NCBI GenBank assembly: GCA_030156825.1
Contig: JASGLU010000013.1
Coordinates: 1-37,224 of the forward strand
Length of the DNA stretch: 37,224 nt
Direction of reading: 5' to 3'
Source: Candidatus Atribacteria bacterium
GTDB taxonomy: Bacteria > Atribacterota > Atribacteria > Atribacterales > JASGLU01
A model generated the notes under the pieces. It worked only from the letters and a program-made list of their open reading frames with translations. It did not search any database and was not told where the DNA came from. Positions 3,596 to 37,216 of this stretch are shown here, one piece after another; position 1 is the stretch's first letter; each line of letters starts with the position of its first letter. The position numbers and the translations under genes were made by a program.

Positions 3596-5877
3596 AAATT
3601 CATCCCCAACCAGTAACCGCAATAAAGTAGAACGGCTAAAAAGTAGGCGGTGGAAATCCCGATGAAGACCGAGAGTAGATGAGCCAGTAGGGAAGAGATG
3701 ACGGAAAAAAACCCATTCCAAGCGAAGACCTGTGGAAAATGGGCTGGGTTTGTCCGACGAATTATTTGCGAGAGATAGGCAAGAGGCATCCCACTAAAAT
3801 AGGCTACTAACGCCAGCGGGGCTAAGGCTATGGCAAAGTTTAAATAGGCGGACAAAAGCAAAAGCCAATCCTTCCCTATTTCTAAGAAAATAAAGTAACC
3901 AATCAGGGAAAGCGGATGACAAACAGCCATTCGGCGGGGAAAAGCAGGGGAGAGGGCTTTGTTTACTCGAAGGCTACCAAGGCCGGAAAAAGTTAAAAGT
4001 ACCCCCAATACCAGTAAAAAGCTGGTTAAAGGATAACCTAAGGTCAGCTTCAGCTTTACTATAAGGGGAATTTCCAAAAACATATACCCGGCTCCTATGC
4101 TGGCTCCAGCAATAAGGGTTGCTCCTGATTTTTTAATAGAAGGATGGTTTTTTCGGGAGGGGAGTAAAATGAAGAGAACTGCCAAAAGGACGATAACTAC
4201 CAGAGTGAAGATGACTAAAAGAAAGCCGGCCCCTCCAAAAGGTAACCATCTTTTTCCCAGGTTAGTCCAGGTTTCTTGTAATTGAGACCAGGTAAAAAAA
4301 TTGGAAAAATAAGGGGAATTATCCTGGGGCGGCTTTAGGTTAAAGGGATAATTTTTGGGATCAGCAGATGATTTGAGCAGGCTTTGCACTGCCTGGTAGT
4401 AGATTTTTCCAGTCTGAAAAATATTTTCCGCTGTTTCTTCCTGAATGCCTGGATAGTAAATCCAGTCAAATTGATAGTCTTTGGCCAATTTGGTTGCCTG
4501 TTCTATTTCAGAAAGAGTAAGCGGGCTCTTTTTAAGCAGAACCAAGCTGAAATTTAGTGCTTTCAAGATGAGCAGGTTTTGCTCTAAAGCTATCTCTTCC
4601 TCCAGGGCAAACTCTAACAATTTCAGGACTTTCGGGAGAACAGAGGGTGGTTGTTGAAGGAAAAGATATAAGGCAAGATACCCCTCTTCCTCCAGTCGAG
4701 AAAAAGCCTGCCTTATCCCTTCCTGGGTGAAAAGATAGTTTTCTTCTAAAGAGAAAGCTCCGGGGAAGATTTCTCCTGGCCCAACCGGTACCTGAGCGGT
4801 GATTAGTTGATAGCGGTTCTCGGTTTGGGCTAAAAATTTGCGGGGAAAACTGATTTTTACCTCTGTTGGGAAAGAAGGGAAAGATTTTTCTAAAAACCTC
4901 TCGAATAAAGGGGAAGAGATTAAGTATAGAGCTTCATCGGTTTGTGAAAAAGCGCTACAGTAAGTCTCGAGTCCACCTTTGCTTTCTAAAATGAGAACTG
5001 TCTGTGGGGAAATAAGTTGAAAGGGAAAGAAAAAGAGGGTGTTTTGGATAAAAGCGGACGAGGGATCTTGGGGAAAGAGTTCTTCTTGGTGGTGATCCCA
5101 TACTAAGGTCCAACTGGTGGGAGGAGCTTGCTCGAAATTAACACTTACTCCAGTGGCCACCCGAGTATGAGGGGTGTCGAATACCTGTAAAATCTGAGCG
5201 GGGTGGCGGAAGGAAAACAACAGTTTATTTGAGGGATCCTGGAGAATAGTTTGCGAGGGGGAATAGGGGGAAAGGTAGATGTCTAAAGGCAAGAATAAAA
5301 GGATAAGGCCTCCAATAATCAGGAGAAAAGTAAGGATTTTTTCTTTGGTAAATAGAACAGCGAAAAAGGGGAGGAGAGATAAAATAATTATGGCTTTAAT
5401 TTCGGGTAGAAGAAAGAGGATGACAAAACCTAAAGCTGTGCCTCCCGCTGAGCCGATCAGGTTTAAGCCGTAAAATCGGGGGAAGAGAGCAGGAAAAAGC
5501 TCGAAACAATAAAGCTGGTAAAGACCGTGGAAAAAGAAAGGAAAAAAGGCTAAGACTAACAGGACTATAAAATAAAGCCAGTTTAAAGGAAAAACCCAAA
5601 ACTGATACCCATCGAGCGGCAGGAGGGAAAATCCCAGGGCTAAAATTATAGCTGCCCCGGCGAACAACCAGGGGATTTTTTGTTTGACCCGGTCTGGAAT
5701 GCTAAAAGCCAGACTACCAGCAGCTCCGTAGCCCAGGAGGGCTAAAGACACGATTAAAGACACAAAATGGTAACCTACTACAAAAGTAAAAAGCCGAAGC
5801 AGGACACCCTCTATAGCCAGGGTGGCTACCGAAATCAGAAATAAAGTCCAGTAAAAAGAGTTGATTTGATTATTCAT
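3535..5877 (-). CDS. Spermidine synthase-like multi-pass membrane protein
   Basis: The 780-aa protein has about seven hydrophobic helices in its first ~200 residues, a soluble region from about 210 to 560, and a second helical block from about 565 to 760. This is the layout of large bacterial membrane proteins with a spermidine-synthase-like methyltransferase fold between transmembrane blocks. The late motif PPQDNSPYFSNFF is the family's D(D/N)xPYF-type signature. The glycine-rich nucleotide motif is poor (TVLILESKGGLETY), so a true aminopropyl- or methyltransferase activity is doubtful. RBS GGAAGG lies just before the ATG at 5877. Its 3' end overlaps the pcm gene tail-to-tail. Function is unknown. 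Confidence 0.75.
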   Translation of the reverse strand: MNNQINSFYWTLFLISVATLAIEGVLLRLFTFVVGYHFVSLIVSLALLGYGAAGSLAFSIPDRVKQKIPWLFAGAAIILALGFSLLPLDGYQFWVFPLNWLYFIVLLVLAFFPFFFHGLYQLYCFELFPALFPRFYGLNLIGSAGGTALGFVILFLLPEIKAIIILSLLPFFAVLFTKEKILTFLLIIGGLILLFLPLDIYLSPYSPSQTILQDPSNKLLFSFRHPAQILQVFDTPHTRVATGVSVNFEQAPPTSWTLVWDHHQEELFPQDPSSAFIQNTLFFFPFQLISPQTVLILESKGGLETYCSAFSQTDEALYLISSPLFERFLEKSFPSFPTEVKISFPRKFLAQTENRYQLITAQVPVGPGEIFPGAFSLEENYLFTQEGIRQAFSRLEEEGYLALYLFLQQPPSVLPKVLKLLEFALEEEIALEQNLLILKALNFSLVLLKKSPLTLSEIEQATKLAKDYQFDWIYYPGIQEETAENIFQTGKIYYQAVQSLLKSSADPKNYPFNLKPPQDNSPYFSNFFTWSQLQETWTNLGKRWLPFGGAGFLLVIFTLVVIVLLAVLFILLPSRKNHPSIKKSGATLIAGASIGAGYMFLEIPLIVKLKLTLGYPLTSFLLVLGVLLTFSGLGSLRVNKALSPAFPRRMAVCHPLSLIGYFIFLEIGKDWLLLLSAYLNFAIALAPLALVAYFSGMPLAYLSQIIRRTNPAHFPQVFAWNGFFSVISSLLAHLLSVFIGISTAYFLAVLLYCGYWLGMNFYSGENSCRTRGTNRTSPKL

Positions 5878-9518: not shown

Positions 9519-9521
9519 GAA

Positions 9522-9690
9522 CTATAATGGGGGCGCTGCCCCCCTTATAACCGAACTATAGGGGGTAAACCCCCTATAACCCCCGAAAAAAATTGAAAAG
9601 ACGGAAAAAAACAGACAGCCTACGGCGTAGACAAAAAAGACAGAAGAAAAAGAACAAATATAACCGAGGAAAGGGAAACACCTTCCTCGG
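9522..9690. repeat. Modular palindromic repeat, copy A
   Basis: Ordered modules are: a G5/C6 hairpin (9525-9548, ATAATGGGGG...CCCCCCTTAT); a second hairpin CTATAGGGGG-TAAA-CCCCCTATAA followed by CCCCCGAAAAA; an A-rich stretch with CAGACAGCCTACGGCGTAG and GACAAAAAAGACAG (9612-9651); and a CCGAGGAA/TTCCTCGG hairpin (9664-9690). The first 27 bases (9522-9548) are identical to 34128-34154. The 40 bases at 9612-9651 differ from 33963-34002 at one position. The element fills the gap between an operon end and the GH1 gene. Confidence 0.8.
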
Positions 9691-23085: not shown

Positions 23086-23431
23086 ACTCGATCACCTACT
23101 ATGAAGATTATCGGTTTTAATTTTTCCTGGTTCATTTTTTTGAACATTGCTGGTATATTGTATCAAATTTTTTTTCCACTTCTAAGAGCAAAAGACACCC
23201 TTGTTTCCAGTTTGATTTCCTCTTGCTTATCTGGATTTTATAAACCTATCTTTTTCGTTATATTCCAACGATTATTTGGAGATAACTTGTTTATACCGAA
23301 CTATGATACCCAGAAACTACCGAGATTGCCTGTCTCTAAATTGCCGGATATAATGTTCAAATAATAATCTTCAGGAGAATACTTAAAAAAGGAACCCGAG
23401 GATAGGTAGCTAACTTCCCGAGACCCCAAAA
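23086..23431. other. Gene-free AT-rich gap upstream of the LptF/G operon
   Basis: No credible gene is seen on either strand. Open frames here either run antisense into the permease or lack family features. The minus-strand promoter of the permease operon must lie here, but I could not settle on a pair of boxes; TACAAT near 23160 on the minus strand is a weak -10 candidate. Confidence 0.5.
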
Positions 23432-23446
23432 ATGACCATGATGATT

Positions 23447-23671
23447 GTATCACATACCAAAGCTTATATTTTACATCATCTGCGATATGCTGAGTCGAAC
23501 TTTGATATCTTCTCGGATGAGGCGATAAAGGAGATTTTCCGTTATTCAGCTGGTAGTACCCGACTGATTAACAAAACCGGTACTCATTATCTCATGTATG
23601 GGGCCCAACAACAGAAGAAGATCATTGATGACCATATGGTCAGATACGTGCTGGGAAAAGAACTGCTGTAA
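23447..23671 (+). pseudogene. C-terminal remnant of an ExeA-type transposon AAA+ ATPase
   Basis: About 75 codons read HTKAYILHHLRYAE, then IFSDEAIKEIFRYSAG, RLINK and KKIIDDHMVRYVL. This is the end of the AAA+ module of ExeA/TniB-like ATPases that accompany DDE transposases. The P-loop, Walker B and everything upstream are missing, and stops precede the fragment in its frame. It reads as the stump of a lost insertion element. Two direct copies of TTGGCAACT follow at 23747 and 23771, 24 bases apart, and might be the element's end repeats. Confidence 0.7.
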
Positions 23672-23746
23672 GGTAAAGTGGTTTCCAGAGATGAGGTATT
23701 CATCACCAGGAGTACCTCAGCTCTACCTTACCCTTGGACACAATAG

Positions 23747-23779
23747 TTGGCAACTATGTGACTTTTTAGCTTGGCAACT
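23747..23779. repeat. Direct repeats TTGGCAACT, possible transposon end
   Basis: TTGGCAACT occurs at 23747-23755 and again at 23771-23779, two helical turns apart, downstream of the ExeA-type remnant. Paired transposase-binding repeats of this sort are usual at the ends of Mu-like and Tn7-like elements; assignment here is inference. Confidence 0.4.
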
Positions 23780-23830
23780 GCCAGACAAAAGGAAATCCGG
23801 CAGAAACATTTTTCCTTATCGTTTTGCTCG

Positions 23831-23862
23831 GTCATTCCCGAAATCAGTAATCGGGAATCCAG
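23831..23862. repeat. Short dispersed repeat, GTCATTCCCGAA type
   Basis: An imperfect palindrome: GTCATTCCCGAAATCAGTAA, then TCGGGAATCCAG. Related copies lie at 34285-34316 and, inverted, at 34338-34369, with degenerate or truncated copies at 9741 and 34104. A CCCCGGC/GCCGGGG hairpin follows it (about 23891-23913). Confidence 0.7.
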
Positions 23863-23934
23863 TCTTTTTTAATGCTCTAAATACTATAGACCCCGGCTTA
23901 AAAACTGCCGGGGTGACAAAAGAGAGGGAGGGGT

Positions 23935-23965
23935 TATAAGGGGGGTCTTTCTCCCCCCATTATTG
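23935..23965. terminator. G6/C6 hairpin at the end of the exported-protein operon
   Basis: TTATAAGGGGGG and CCCCCCATTAT flank a short TCTTTCT loop and overlap the stop of the minus-strand gene at 23960. It is the end of the leftward three-gene operon and resembles the hairpin at 12568 in stem and loop (both contain GTCTTTC). Confidence 0.55.
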
Positions 23966-33981: not shown

Positions 33982-34052
33982 ACAAAAAAGACAGAAGAAA
34001 AAAACAAAGATTAACTGAGGAAGGTCTTTTTCCTTCCTCAGTAGGGGGAAAA
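33891..34052. repeat. Modular palindromic repeat, copy B, running into btuD
   Basis: The modules match copy A in order: a G4/C5 hairpin (33893-33913) ending CCCCCTATAACCCCCGAAAA (33904-33923), the A-rich stretch with CAGACAGCCTATGGCGTAG (33963-34002; 39 of 40 bases as at 9612-9651), and ACTGAGGAAG/CTTCCTCAGT (34014-34042). A further AGGGGG/CCCCCCT hairpin follows. The btuD stop codon is the TAG of the GGCGTAG motif. Confidence 0.8.
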
Positions 34053-34103
34053 TACCCCCCTAATAACCCCTTTCTTTTTCGGCAGTGCAATGGCCCTCTG
34101 TTT

Positions 34104-34126
34104 GTCATTCCTGAACGTCTTTATCG
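34104..34126. repeat. Truncated GTCATTCC-type repeat cut by copy C
   Basis: GTCATTCCTGAACGTCTTTA then TCG matches the first two thirds of the copy at 34285 and stops exactly where the modular repeat copy C begins (34128). This suggests that the modular repeat was inserted into an older copy. Confidence 0.5.
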
Positions 34127-34127
34127 A

Positions 34128-34260
34128 CTATAATGGGGGCGCTGCCCCCCTTATCAACCCCGACAATAGGGGGAAACCCCCTATAACCCCCGAAAAAAAA
34201 CCAAACAAATCAAATATAAAAAGACAAATATAACCGAGGAAGAACGACGCTTCCTCGGTA
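34128..34260. repeat. Modular palindromic repeat, copy C
   Basis: The first 27 bases equal 9522-9548. The second hairpin (AATAGGGGG-AAA-CCCCCTATAA) and CCCCCGAAAA at 34187-34196 match copies A and B. The CAGACAGCC module is missing and replaced by A-rich sequence; GACAAATATAACCGAGGAAG and its partner CTTCCTCGGT close the unit. Confidence 0.8.
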
Positions 34261-34282
34261 CACGGAGGAAAAGCCTCCGTGT
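34260..34282. terminator. Perfect ACACGGAGG/CCTCCGTGT hairpin
   Basis: A 9-bp perfect stem with loop AAAAG directly follows the CCGAGGAAG hairpin of copy C. It could act as a terminator between the leftward methylase genes and the rightward B12 operon, though no T-run follows; it may simply be another repeat module. Confidence 0.4.
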
Positions 34283-34284
34283 CC

Positions 34285-34369
34285 GTCATTCCTGAATGTA
34301 TTTATCAGGAATCTAAATTGTTTAAGGATGAAAATACCTGGATTCCCGATTAAGGATTTCGGGAATGAC
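34285..34369. repeat. Inverted pair of GTCATTCC-type repeats
   Basis: A direct copy (34285-34316, GTCATTCCTGAATGTATTTA then TCAGGAATCTA) and an inverted copy (34338-34369, CTGGATTCCCGATTAAGGAT then TTCGGGAATGAC) face each other across ~21 bases, forming a long inverted repeat. Confidence 0.65.
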
Positions 34370-34378
34370 GGAGAAAAG

Positions 34379-34550
34379 TTCTGGCTTTGACACCTCACTC
34401 AGCTGAAACCCGCATTAAATCTACATTTTTTAAATCAAAATGTGCTATTTTGCCACTACACTTTTGGAAGAATAAAATATGAATACCTATATTTATTAGG
34501 TTTGCAACTTCAAAATGAGTGAAAATCAGCACAAAGCGTCAAAGTCAGAA
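34379..34550. repeat. Possible 172-bp non-autonomous element with 13-bp terminal inverted repeats
   Basis: TTCTGGCTTTGAC (34379-34391) and GTCAAAGTCAGAA (34538-34550) are inverted copies with one mismatch. The AT-rich interior has no gene. It lies between the repeat cluster and the methylase stop. No clear target duplication was seen. Confidence 0.35.
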
Positions 34551-34573
34551 GACAAATACCTATCATCCTGAAA

Positions 34574-35362
34574 CTAAACATGATTACGCCCCATACTATA
34601 GCATATCCTTTTCAGGTTTTCATTTTTAGCCGGTTTCCTGAATATGAACAGGTGTTCATGCATAATCATGAGAAAATTGTATTTCCCTATTTTATTTTTC
34701 CAGTATGGTGTTGACTTACAATTGTGTTGAATCTTGATCACTTCTTCTTTAAGAGCAAAACCGCTTTCCAAAAACAGTTCTAACACATAATAGGAAAGGG
34801 GGATGTAATGCTGAGCCTTTCTGGTATCACCTATAAGAATAGCACAATAAGCATTTTCTTTTAATACTCGGAAAAATTCTTGTATTCCAAGACTCAGTTC
34901 CTGACAGAATTTATCCACGCTTCCGATGTTTGATAGATCATTTGCTATTTTACCATTTGAATATTTAATAATATTAAGATAAGGAGGGTGGGTAAGAATC
35001 AGGTCAATGGAACAATCCTCAATTCCGATAAGGTTACGAACATCACCCACTTCAACGGTTTGGGGGAGCGCCGCCGGGTATGAAAATTGTAAGTTGTTAA
35101 TTGTAAGTTGGACAGCTTCAGGGTTAATGTCCCTACCTATTCCTCGTCGTTTGAGCAGTTTGGTTTCAATAAGGGTTGTACCTCCACCTACCATAGGGTC
35201 AAAAACAGTATCTCCCTCCTTGGAATAGCGAAGAATAACATTACGAGCTATTTGGGGAGCAAAATTACCCCGGAATTTTGGGTTATGGGTATACCAAATT
35301 CCCCTTTCAGGTATAGACCAAACTGTGGTGGTTTCTATCTGGAAGTCGATGCTATCTGACAC
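34574..35362 (-). CDS. DNA (N6-adenine or N4-cytosine) methyltransferase of the restriction-modification locus
   Basis: A 262-aa SAM-dependent DNA methyltransferase. Motif I is DPMVGGGTT (residues 55-63), preceded by THNPKFRGNFAPQIARNVIL. The catalytic motif IV is THPPY (124-128). A motif-I-before-IV order with a (T/S)xPPY tetrad suits amino-methyltransferases of the N4/N6 class. The start is GTG at 35362, with GGAG eight bases upstream, inside the end of the DpnII-type endonuclease gene (28-base overlap), so it belongs to the same operon. Frame and motifs are intact. It may protect the same site as the Dam-like enzyme, or its hemimethylated or single-stranded form, as the second methylase of DpnII-type systems does; that is inference. 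Confidence 0.85.
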   Translation of the reverse strand: MSDSIDFQIETTTVWSIPERGIWYTHNPKFRGNFAPQIARNVILRYSKEGDTVFDPMVGGGTTLIETKLLKRRGIGRDINPEAVQLTINNLQFSYPAALPQTVEVGDVRNLIGIEDCSIDLILTHPPYLNIIKYSNGKIANDLSNIGSVDKFCQELSLGIQEFFRVLKENAYCAILIGDTRKAQHYIPLSYYVLELFLESGFALKEEVIKIQHNCKSTPYWKNKIGKYNFLMIMHEHLFIFRKPAKNENLKRICYSMGRNHV

Positions 35363-36276
35363 AGTATGCGCTCCAAAAGTCCTTTTCTGACAAAATGTAA
35401 ATTTAAAGGATAATCAATCATTTCTAACCCTTTCCTAATCTGATTTTTCTGACCTTTCCAACCCAAACCATCGGTAATCCAGATAAAGTCGAAACCGTTA
35501 TCGTATAACTCATTCTGCCGGTTAATATAAGAATCCACGATTTCTTGGGGTTTAGAACCAGTTCCAGAAAAGAAGTTCACCTCAATATTGACGATTTTAC
35601 CTTTGTTCCCAATAAGCATAAAATCAGTTTTTCGATTGAAAAGAGAGGACGAAACAGGAATGTGGTAATGGTCTGGTAGATAACGAAAGTATCTTTGGTT
35701 TTCTATTTGAAATGGTAGCTTTCGCTGCTTCACTATGGTCTGGATTATTGGATCCACAACAAGTTCCATCGCTTTACCGCTGCGGTTTTTGCGAGCGTGG
35801 GTATCTAAACCCACTTCTACTCCGGCAATATAGTCTTGAATGCTTTGGCATGAAAAATTTTGAAAGAAGCGCTTGAGTCCAGTCCTTTCAAAAAAGATAA
35901 TTAAATCTTCTATTTCTTTTGGTGAAAGCTTCCTTTTTCGGAAATCGTATGTCACCGTGTCTGAATCGACATCCATGAAGTCTTTGACCACCTTTATTTG
36001 CAAATCACGAATAGCAAGAAGCATGGGAATGACAGGAAGCACTTCCGGATAGCTGGTTATCAGGCGGCAAAGGGTGGAGTCAAAGTCGGAACATCGGATA
36101 AGAGAACTTAAAATGTTAAGCTCAACTCTATATTTTTCTACATTTCGTTTGACTTTTTGCTAATCGACAAAAAACTGATACCCCCGGTTTGTGTCAATAA
36201 GAGTATCATGAAAGATGTCTATAATAGCATCAAAGGATCTCAATTTAAAGAAACTCAGATAAAGAGAGACATCCAT
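35335..36276 (-). pseudogene. DpnII-type restriction endonuclease gene, interrupted by an in-frame TAG
   Basis: The frame from ATG 36276 (two bases after the Dam-like stop) to the TAG at 35335 has 313 codons, and codon 39 is TAG (36162-36160). The sequence around it, YQFFVD-stop-QKVKRNVEKYRVELNIL, aligns with the DpnII family's N-terminal region, where I recall Trp at that place, so a TGG-to-TAG change is likely. Downstream, family motifs are intact: GLDTHARKNRSGKAMEL (about codons 157-173), and the putative PD-(D/E)xK site in KTDFMLI and VNIEVNFFSGTGSKP, then FIWITDGLGWKG. DpnII cuts GATC. A GTG at 36042 could start only a C-terminal piece. Function is probably lost unless TAG is read through. 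Confidence 0.85.
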
Positions 36277-36278
36277 GC

Positions 36279-37216
36279 TCAACTTACTCCATAGTTACGA
36301 ATTATTAGTTCGTTGATTTCTCCCCGACGACTGGCATCGCAGTTAATAAATCTTTTAGCCGGTACTCTCTCGATTATAAACCCTTTATAAAGGTTATCAA
36401 AAAAGTCATCTTCAGGATTTTCATTTTTGGGGTCGGAATTGCTTTGGATGAGGTAGGCCCCTCGTCTATCCATCTCCCGAAAAAACTGAGCCAATCGCTT
36501 TTGATCGGCTTCGGAAAATCCCTCCTTGGAATATGATGTGAAGTTAGAAGTAGCATTAATCGGTCTATAAGGAGGGTCGAAATAAACTAACGTTCCCTTC
36601 TGTATATATCGGGCCGAAAGAGAGAAATCGCCACAAATGATGTCTGTATTCTGGAGAGCACGACTTGCTTTCTGTAAAATTGTTTTACTACAAATGGTGG
36701 GATTTTTGTAGCGACCAAAAGGCACATTAAATTCCCCTTTTCGGTTCAAGCGGAATAAGCCATTATAGCAGGTTTTATTGAGAAAAATTAACCAGGAAGC
36801 CCGTTCAATCCAACCTTTATTATATCGACTATAATCTAAATGATGTCTCTGAGCATTGTACTGGCTCCGAATGTGGTAAAAAAGTTCACTTCTTTTTTCT
36901 TCAGGCAAATTGAAGTAGGCTTCCTCAAGCTTGCCAAGCTTTTGAATAAGAGCCTCGGGGTCTTTTTGCACCACTCGAAAACTCAGGATAAGTTCCGGAT
37001 TAGAATCAACCAGATATGACTCTTCAACTTGAAAGTGTCTTTTGAGGAAAAAAAACAGTGCACCACTTCCTACAAATGGTTCCACATATCTTTCAATATA
37101 AAGTTGGGAGAGAATAGGCTCAGGGAGTTTTGTGGCTAAAACATTCAAAAGTTGAGTTTTCCCCCCGCCCATTTTAAAAAAGGCCTTGGATATTCCCTCT
37201 CTTTGATAGCTTTCAT
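36279..37216 (-). pseudogene. Dam-type (D12 class) adenine-N6 methyltransferase, frameshifted near the N-terminus
   Basis: From ATG 37172 an open frame of 297 aa shows the Dam family motif I region EPFVGSGALF, LNKTCYNGLFRLNRKGEFNV with PFG after it, motif IV FDPPYRP, and RRGEINELIIRNY. The upstream start ATG 37216 reads MKAIKEREYPRPFLKWAGGK, the exact Dam-family N-terminus, but in another frame, and ends at TGA after 23 codons. The two frames meet in a run of six G and four A (about 37157-37166); adding one base gives KWAGGKTQLLN. So either a one-base deletion has broken the gene or the read is wrong there. Translation from 37172 would lack the KWAGG part of the SAM site. Target is probably GATC, from its DpnII partner. 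Confidence 0.75.

Follow-up and report, generated by a model that had tools for sequence, protein, structure and literature searches.

A single codon raises the question asked of this locus: why is a gene for a DpnII-family restriction endonuclease, otherwise complete over 313 codons, interrupted by an in-frame amber codon, and what has become of the methylases encoded beside it? The stretch of DNA analysed here (the window) is one whole contig of 37,224 nt, C21 of the 98 contigs that make up a Candidatus Atribacteria draft genome (G000) with a size of 1.98 Mb, a completeness of 92.85% and a contamination of 1.96%. Three consecutive minus-strand genes lie at the right end of the contig in the order M1-R-M2, coding for a Dam-like adenine methylase, the endonuclease and a second DNA methyltransferase, respectively. 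The genes are tightly packed; R starts 2 bases past the M1 stop codon, and the GTG start codon of M2 sits within the 3' end of R, creating a 28-base overlap. DpnII-type restriction-modification systems, which are directed at GATC, include DpnII and MboI. The named relatives found for the R gene are Candidatus Atribacteria metagenome-assembled genomes (MAGs). With moderate confidence, we favor the reading that the three-gene DpnII-type cassette was recently inactivated; it looks like an ordinary defence system falling apart and not like a reprogrammed genetic code. The features on which this reading is built are collected in Table 1.

Table 1. Genes and lesions of the DpnII-type cassette, in coordinates of the window.
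Feature	Position	Strand	Evidence and remarks
M1, Dam-like adenine methylase gene	36279..37216	-	TIGR00571, PF02086, frame check; homologous start ATG 37216-37214; frameshifted near start
R, DpnII-family type II restriction endonuclease gene	35335..36276	-	PF04556, PADLOC REase_II; 313 codons + TAG; interrupted at codon 39
M2, second DNA methyltransferase gene	34574..35362	-	N6_N4_Mtase family; frame open
In-frame TAG (amber), R codon 39, replacing Trp	36160..36162	-	TGG in closest relative G015
R remainder, longest stop-free stretch with a start codon	35335..36042	-	235 aa from GTG codon 79; without profile positions 1-62
G6-A4 run in M1, KWAGGK motif	37157..37166	-	1 base shorter than in two intact relatives; holds in-frame G_GGA_AAA heptamer
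Premature TGA in M1	37145..37147	-	Ends M1 after 23 codons in start-codon frame

We confirmed the presence of the TAG in R and its position within the gene, both of which had been proposed in the initial annotation. The triplet reads CTA on the forward strand and TAG on the minus strand, where it forms codon 39 of the frame running from 36276 to 35335. When the stop is read through, the R product matches the Pfam DpnII profile (PF04556) with 267.8 bits over profile positions 3-277 of 278, with homology on both sides of this single TAG; the near-full-length match across the TAG marks R as a genuine gene, not a frame open by chance. R was also called REase_II by PADLOC, while no match was obtained with the NCBIfam profiles. 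An alignment was built from 12 of the 21 homologue matches, the window included, and the other nine, being partial or weak, were left out. The column of codon 39, predicted to be usually tryptophan, indeed holds Trp in 11 of 11 other rows, six of which share just 30 to 43% identity with the R product of the window. The window R keeps 40 of the 41 columns that are invariant in these 11 rows, and W39 is the sole loss. The closest relative, G015 (88% identical), reads GAT TGG CAA AAA at this site and the window reads GAT TAG CAA AAA, a difference of one G to A, exactly the change from TGG that had been suspected. As assembled, R is a pseudogene of the DpnII family, its frame being interrupted at codon 39. 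Cleavage of unmethylated GATC is a specificity predicted from family membership.

A truncated but active nuclease restarting at the GTG of codon 79 or the ATG of codon 85 was considered and found to be unsupported; such a product would miss profile positions 1-62, the N-terminal quarter of the family. Of the six orthologous cassettes described below, only that of the window has the ATG at codon 85, and no clear ribosome-binding site was seen by eye in the printed bases upstream of the restart codons. Structure prediction performed on the read-through R protein plus three relatives gave a mean pLDDT of only 35.6, and a sequence search of solved structures with R revealed no resemblance, its five matches having E values of 0.41 or worse. 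Relatives of R were absent from the viral contigs searched; the phage records searched contained one match (31%), and 19 records of a plasmid collection contained relatives, every one less than 60% identical.

The R frame stays fully conserved past the TAG, which is what would be seen if TAG were read as an amino acid, through amber recoding or insertion of pyrrolysine. Several properties of the genome speak against such decoding. Release factor 1 is present, covering nearly the whole profile without an internal stop; the best match to pyrrolysyl-tRNA synthetase (PylS) scores 37.5 bits, compared with a cut-off of 178.15; and stops occur in none of the 85 ABC-domain matches of the genome. TAG is also the proper stop codon of R and terminates 6 of the 32 tallied open reading frames (ORFs) of the window, R included; its use at the end of R and several neighbours had been pointed out when general amber recoding was first judged unlikely. 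A suppressor tRNA was sought among 33 Rfam tRNA matches, 31 of which received an anticodon from ARAGORN, and CTA was not among the anticodons in this incomplete list. Amber recoding was therefore rejected, and we regard its probability as negligible. None of the 31 anticodon-called tRNAs in the genome is for Trp, Tyr, Ile or Thr, and tRNA genes thus seem to be missing from the draft.

The initial annotation had placed an intact methylase beside the broken nuclease. This holds for M2, which is fully open and carries a THPPY motif after a DPMVGGGTT motif, but not for M1, which is one base short as assembled. M1 is a clear member of its family, matching TIGR00571 with 269.6 bits (cut-off 114.85) and PF02086 with 194 bits (cut-off 22), and the nearest solved structure by sequence is that of DpnM (2dpm). 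Its ORF looks open and intact because the frame runs off the contig end. That contig-end frame contains KMGGGK in place of the conserved KWAGGK, and the residues preceding it (KGHESYQREGISKAFF) are unlike the M1 starts of G015 or G008. The neighbouring frame begins with ATG and reads MKAIKEREYPRPFLKWAGGK, the G015 counterpart of which is MKVIKERGQPKPFLKWAGGK. DNA alignment of M1 with the two relatives containing the stretch gives exactly one gap in the window, located in the run GGGCGGGGGGAAAAC. Read from its own start codon, M1 is not an uninterrupted frame; 23 codons are followed by a TGA (37147-37145). Past the break, the profile match, which extends almost to the end, and the constraint are both normal. 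The G6 run at the M1 start is found in neither of the two relatives that hold this stretch. Some 60 bases separate the gap from the contig end, and the contig itself ends 8 bases before the M1 start; no other contig of the genome was found to overlap this end. M1 illustrates that a gene break can be hidden when the frame runs off the end of a contig.

A one-base backward slip at the G_GGA_AAA heptamer would yield the expected ...KWAGGK/TQLL... protein, which raised the possibility of a programmed frameshift. In-frame GGGAAAA is common in the window, with eight occurrences in the 29 other genes, and the RNA fold downstream of the M1 heptamer is no better than that of shuffled sequences (z 0.47). 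For these two reasons we see no sign of programmed slippage, and this candidate was rejected.

Orthologous cassettes were read in six genomes, namely the window, G015, G022, G020, G005 and G008. Within the portions present, no lesion was seen in G008, G015 or G022. The cassette of G020 (L020/L060, G020:C485) bears an independent CAA-to-TAA (ochre) stop at R codon 144, and this genome has in addition a second DpnII gene that is open and 43% identical to the window R. The contig of G005 (L061, G005:C195) contains at about 4800-5060 a tandem duplication of the M1/R junction with an offset of 117 bases, the two copies not being identical; R is open downstream of it. Two R stops among six cassettes, set beside an M1 or M2 lesion in the window only, suggest that R tends to be lost first, although two events are too few and the count is weakened further by the truncation of M1 at a contig boundary in G005, G020 and G022. 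A survey for stops in R in another phylum found none, but only nine genomes were reached and two had a match, too small a sample.

The age of the loss was approached by comparing the window with G015. R and M2 both give a dN/dS of 0.086, and the part of M1 past the break gives 0.092 (0.097 for M1 with some out-of-frame codons); these are rough figures because dS is 0.7 to 1.1. Residue changes were polarised by four more distant relatives, which assigned 12 changes (the stop included) to the window branch and 5 to the G015 branch in R, 10 and 6 in M1, and 16 and 10 in M2; R does not differ from M1 and M2 combined in this respect (Fisher p 0.76). R, M1 and M2 are thus equally constrained, with no sign of long decay, which supports the proposal in the initial annotation that the loss is recent. 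Judged from these comparisons, the unrelaxed constraint in R and M1 fits a recent loss and fits a sequence error equally well. We found no second assembly of this species.

If the cassette has indeed been inactivated as assembled, R would give a 38-residue peptide and no nuclease, and full-length M1 would not be made, or would be made at a low level only, from a downstream ATG or by slippage. Expression of M2 may be reduced through loss of translational coupling, since translation of R would no longer reach the M2 start codon within its 3' end. A cell that lost M1 with R still cleaving unmethylated GATC would be expected to die unless protected by M2, and R was thus likely to have been lost before M1. 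With a true frameshift, M1 would methylate GATC far less or not at all, a condition that should be survivable only with R dead. Were this sequence of events real, the locus would offer a snapshot of a restriction-modification system just after its loss, with the nuclease dead by one base, the methylase apparently following and constraint unrelaxed.

The first of the competing explanations holds that only R is dead and that M1 and M2 still methylate, making this a solitary methylation system as the initial annotation had inferred; the M1 gap would then be an assembly slip, or M1 would be translated from the in-frame ATG at 37172 or rescued by slippage. Low dN/dS past the M1 break and the profile match running almost to its end are what a working methylase would show, the proximity of the gap to the contig end makes a slip in the assembly conceivable, and the backward slip described above would restore the expected protein. 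Precedents also exist: in the parts of the literature consulted, Dam-like orphan GATC methylases recur across several archaeal taxa (PMC10609329), and two type II systems of Helicobacter pylori facultatively lack the nuclease (PMC10423294). Set against this, M1 is frameshifted in the sequence as assembled, the heptamer and the RNA fold give no slippage signal, and 11 other G/C runs of at least 6 lie inside the 29 open coding frames of the window, so that such runs are not generally misassembled here. We hold survival of solitary methylation to be unlikely. Rather doubtful, too, is the explanation that the organism has an intact cassette and that the consensus near the contig end is wrong at one or both lesions. 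Both lesions fall in the last 1.1 kb of a contig, where the consensus is weakest, in a 98-contig draft; constraint is unrelaxed in R and M1; and assemblies seem prone to break here, M1 being truncated by the contig boundary in three of the six orthologous contigs and the window contig stopping 8 bases short of the M1 start. R codon 39, however, lies 1.06 kb from the contig end, and only 125 of the 2817 possible single-base changes in R create a stop, a rare outcome for a random substitution. Of the 29 other proteins of the window, 23 were scanned and 22 matched a Pfam family; by eye none looked split, and the 11 long G/C runs just mentioned also lie within open frames.

Inactivation might alternatively be a reversible OFF state, that is, phase variation of the cassette. 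The G6 run at the M1 start, missing from the two relatives holding the stretch, invites this reading, and poly-G runs of 6 to 11 are described as switching a CpG methylase of Mycoplasma agalactiae in the portion of that report seen (PMC9465063). In R, however, the lesion is a simple base substitution outside any repeat, and the OFF state that had been entertained found no support in simple repeats of this gene, for R contains only two T6 runs and no tandem array at codon 39. The G6 run of M1 is short and of a common kind, the window containing 19 G/C runs of at least 6, so that it leaves a weak case for phase variation, which we consider most improbable. Also very unlikely, if not quite to the same degree, is a cassette retained as a restriction-free, low-level GATC methylation device, with R silent, M1 expressed via the G_GGA_AAA backward slip or by switching of the G-run length, and M2 uncoupled. 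If such a device existed, it would represent a tuned or switchable epigenetic system derived from a former defence system. Recent inactivation of the cassette is the explanation we retain.

The cassette was compared with known systems. The Lactococcus plasmid pSRQ700 likewise carries a Dam-like M1, a DpnII-family R and a second methylase, all on one strand, and the window R is 30% identical to the pSRQ700 enzyme. The gene order is M1-R-M2 in the window and M1-M2-R in pSRQ700, and M2 and the second methylase of pSRQ700 do not appear to be full-length relatives; only pieces of 54 and 49 residues align well, in swapped order. The lesions in R and M1 set the window cassette apart from pSRQ700. Homologues of M2 were found near a DpnII-family R in 3 of the 9 loci compared, and a fourth locus (G003) is cut off by the locus end. 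In G085 (L002) the M2 homologue near R is 55% identical; in G093 (L011) it is 49% identical and precedes R; and in Fusobacterium vincentii (NZ_CP084075, L150) it is 47% identical, with a further frame between R and M2. No stop was reported in R of G085 or G093. Since M2 homologues accompany R in these three loci, the trio is a variant that recurs outside the window.

Restriction systems are already known to become inactivated in nature, and the window cassette adds one more case. As far as the sections consulted describe them, hsdR and methylase pseudogenes of M. agalactiae are broken by frameshifts and early stops (PMC9465063), and a frameshifted nuclease gene is suggested to silence the intact downstream genes in the silenced H. 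pylori JHP0414/JHP0415 system (PMC3936762). Nuclease or methylase genes are disrupted there as they are here, but the systems are of other types, in other organisms, and methylome data accompany them. In the collection of papers searched, none combined Atribacterota with restriction-modification, although two name Atribacter, DNA methylation and restriction-modification.

We asked whether avoidance of GATC might record earlier activity of the nuclease. Among the 256 tetramers GATC ranks second in depletion, with 723 seen and 1522 expected in 437 kb of the genome (ratio 0.48). The ratio in relatives ranges from 0.43 to 1.01 in five without a DpnII match and from 0.44 to 0.97 in five with an orthologous cassette, and a relative with a different DpnII gene gives 0.49; for G020 and G022, the contigs sampled in this comparison have a low GC content (0.31 and 0.24, respectively) and may be contaminants. 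Because relatives with and without DpnII overlap in ratio, the depletion does not track the presence of DpnII and was rejected as not diagnostic. In the window and another 20 stretches of G000, GATC and GTAC are both about halved and CTAG is extremely rare, with a ratio of 0.05 in the window and 0.08 in the 437 kb; in all 11 relatives sampled the CTAG ratio is 0.02 to 0.52.

Repeated DNA was also observed elsewhere in the window. A stretch of 874 bases at 23086-23959 showed no convincing gene on inspection, and pieces of it are matched in 7 of 20 sampled stretches. Intergenic repeats at 33982-34573, 9521-9690 and 23823-23890 are matched in 17 of the 20 stretches of 20 kb sampled from the genome, and the segment at 34381-34550 has a 170-base copy on contig C5 (L072) with 91% identity.
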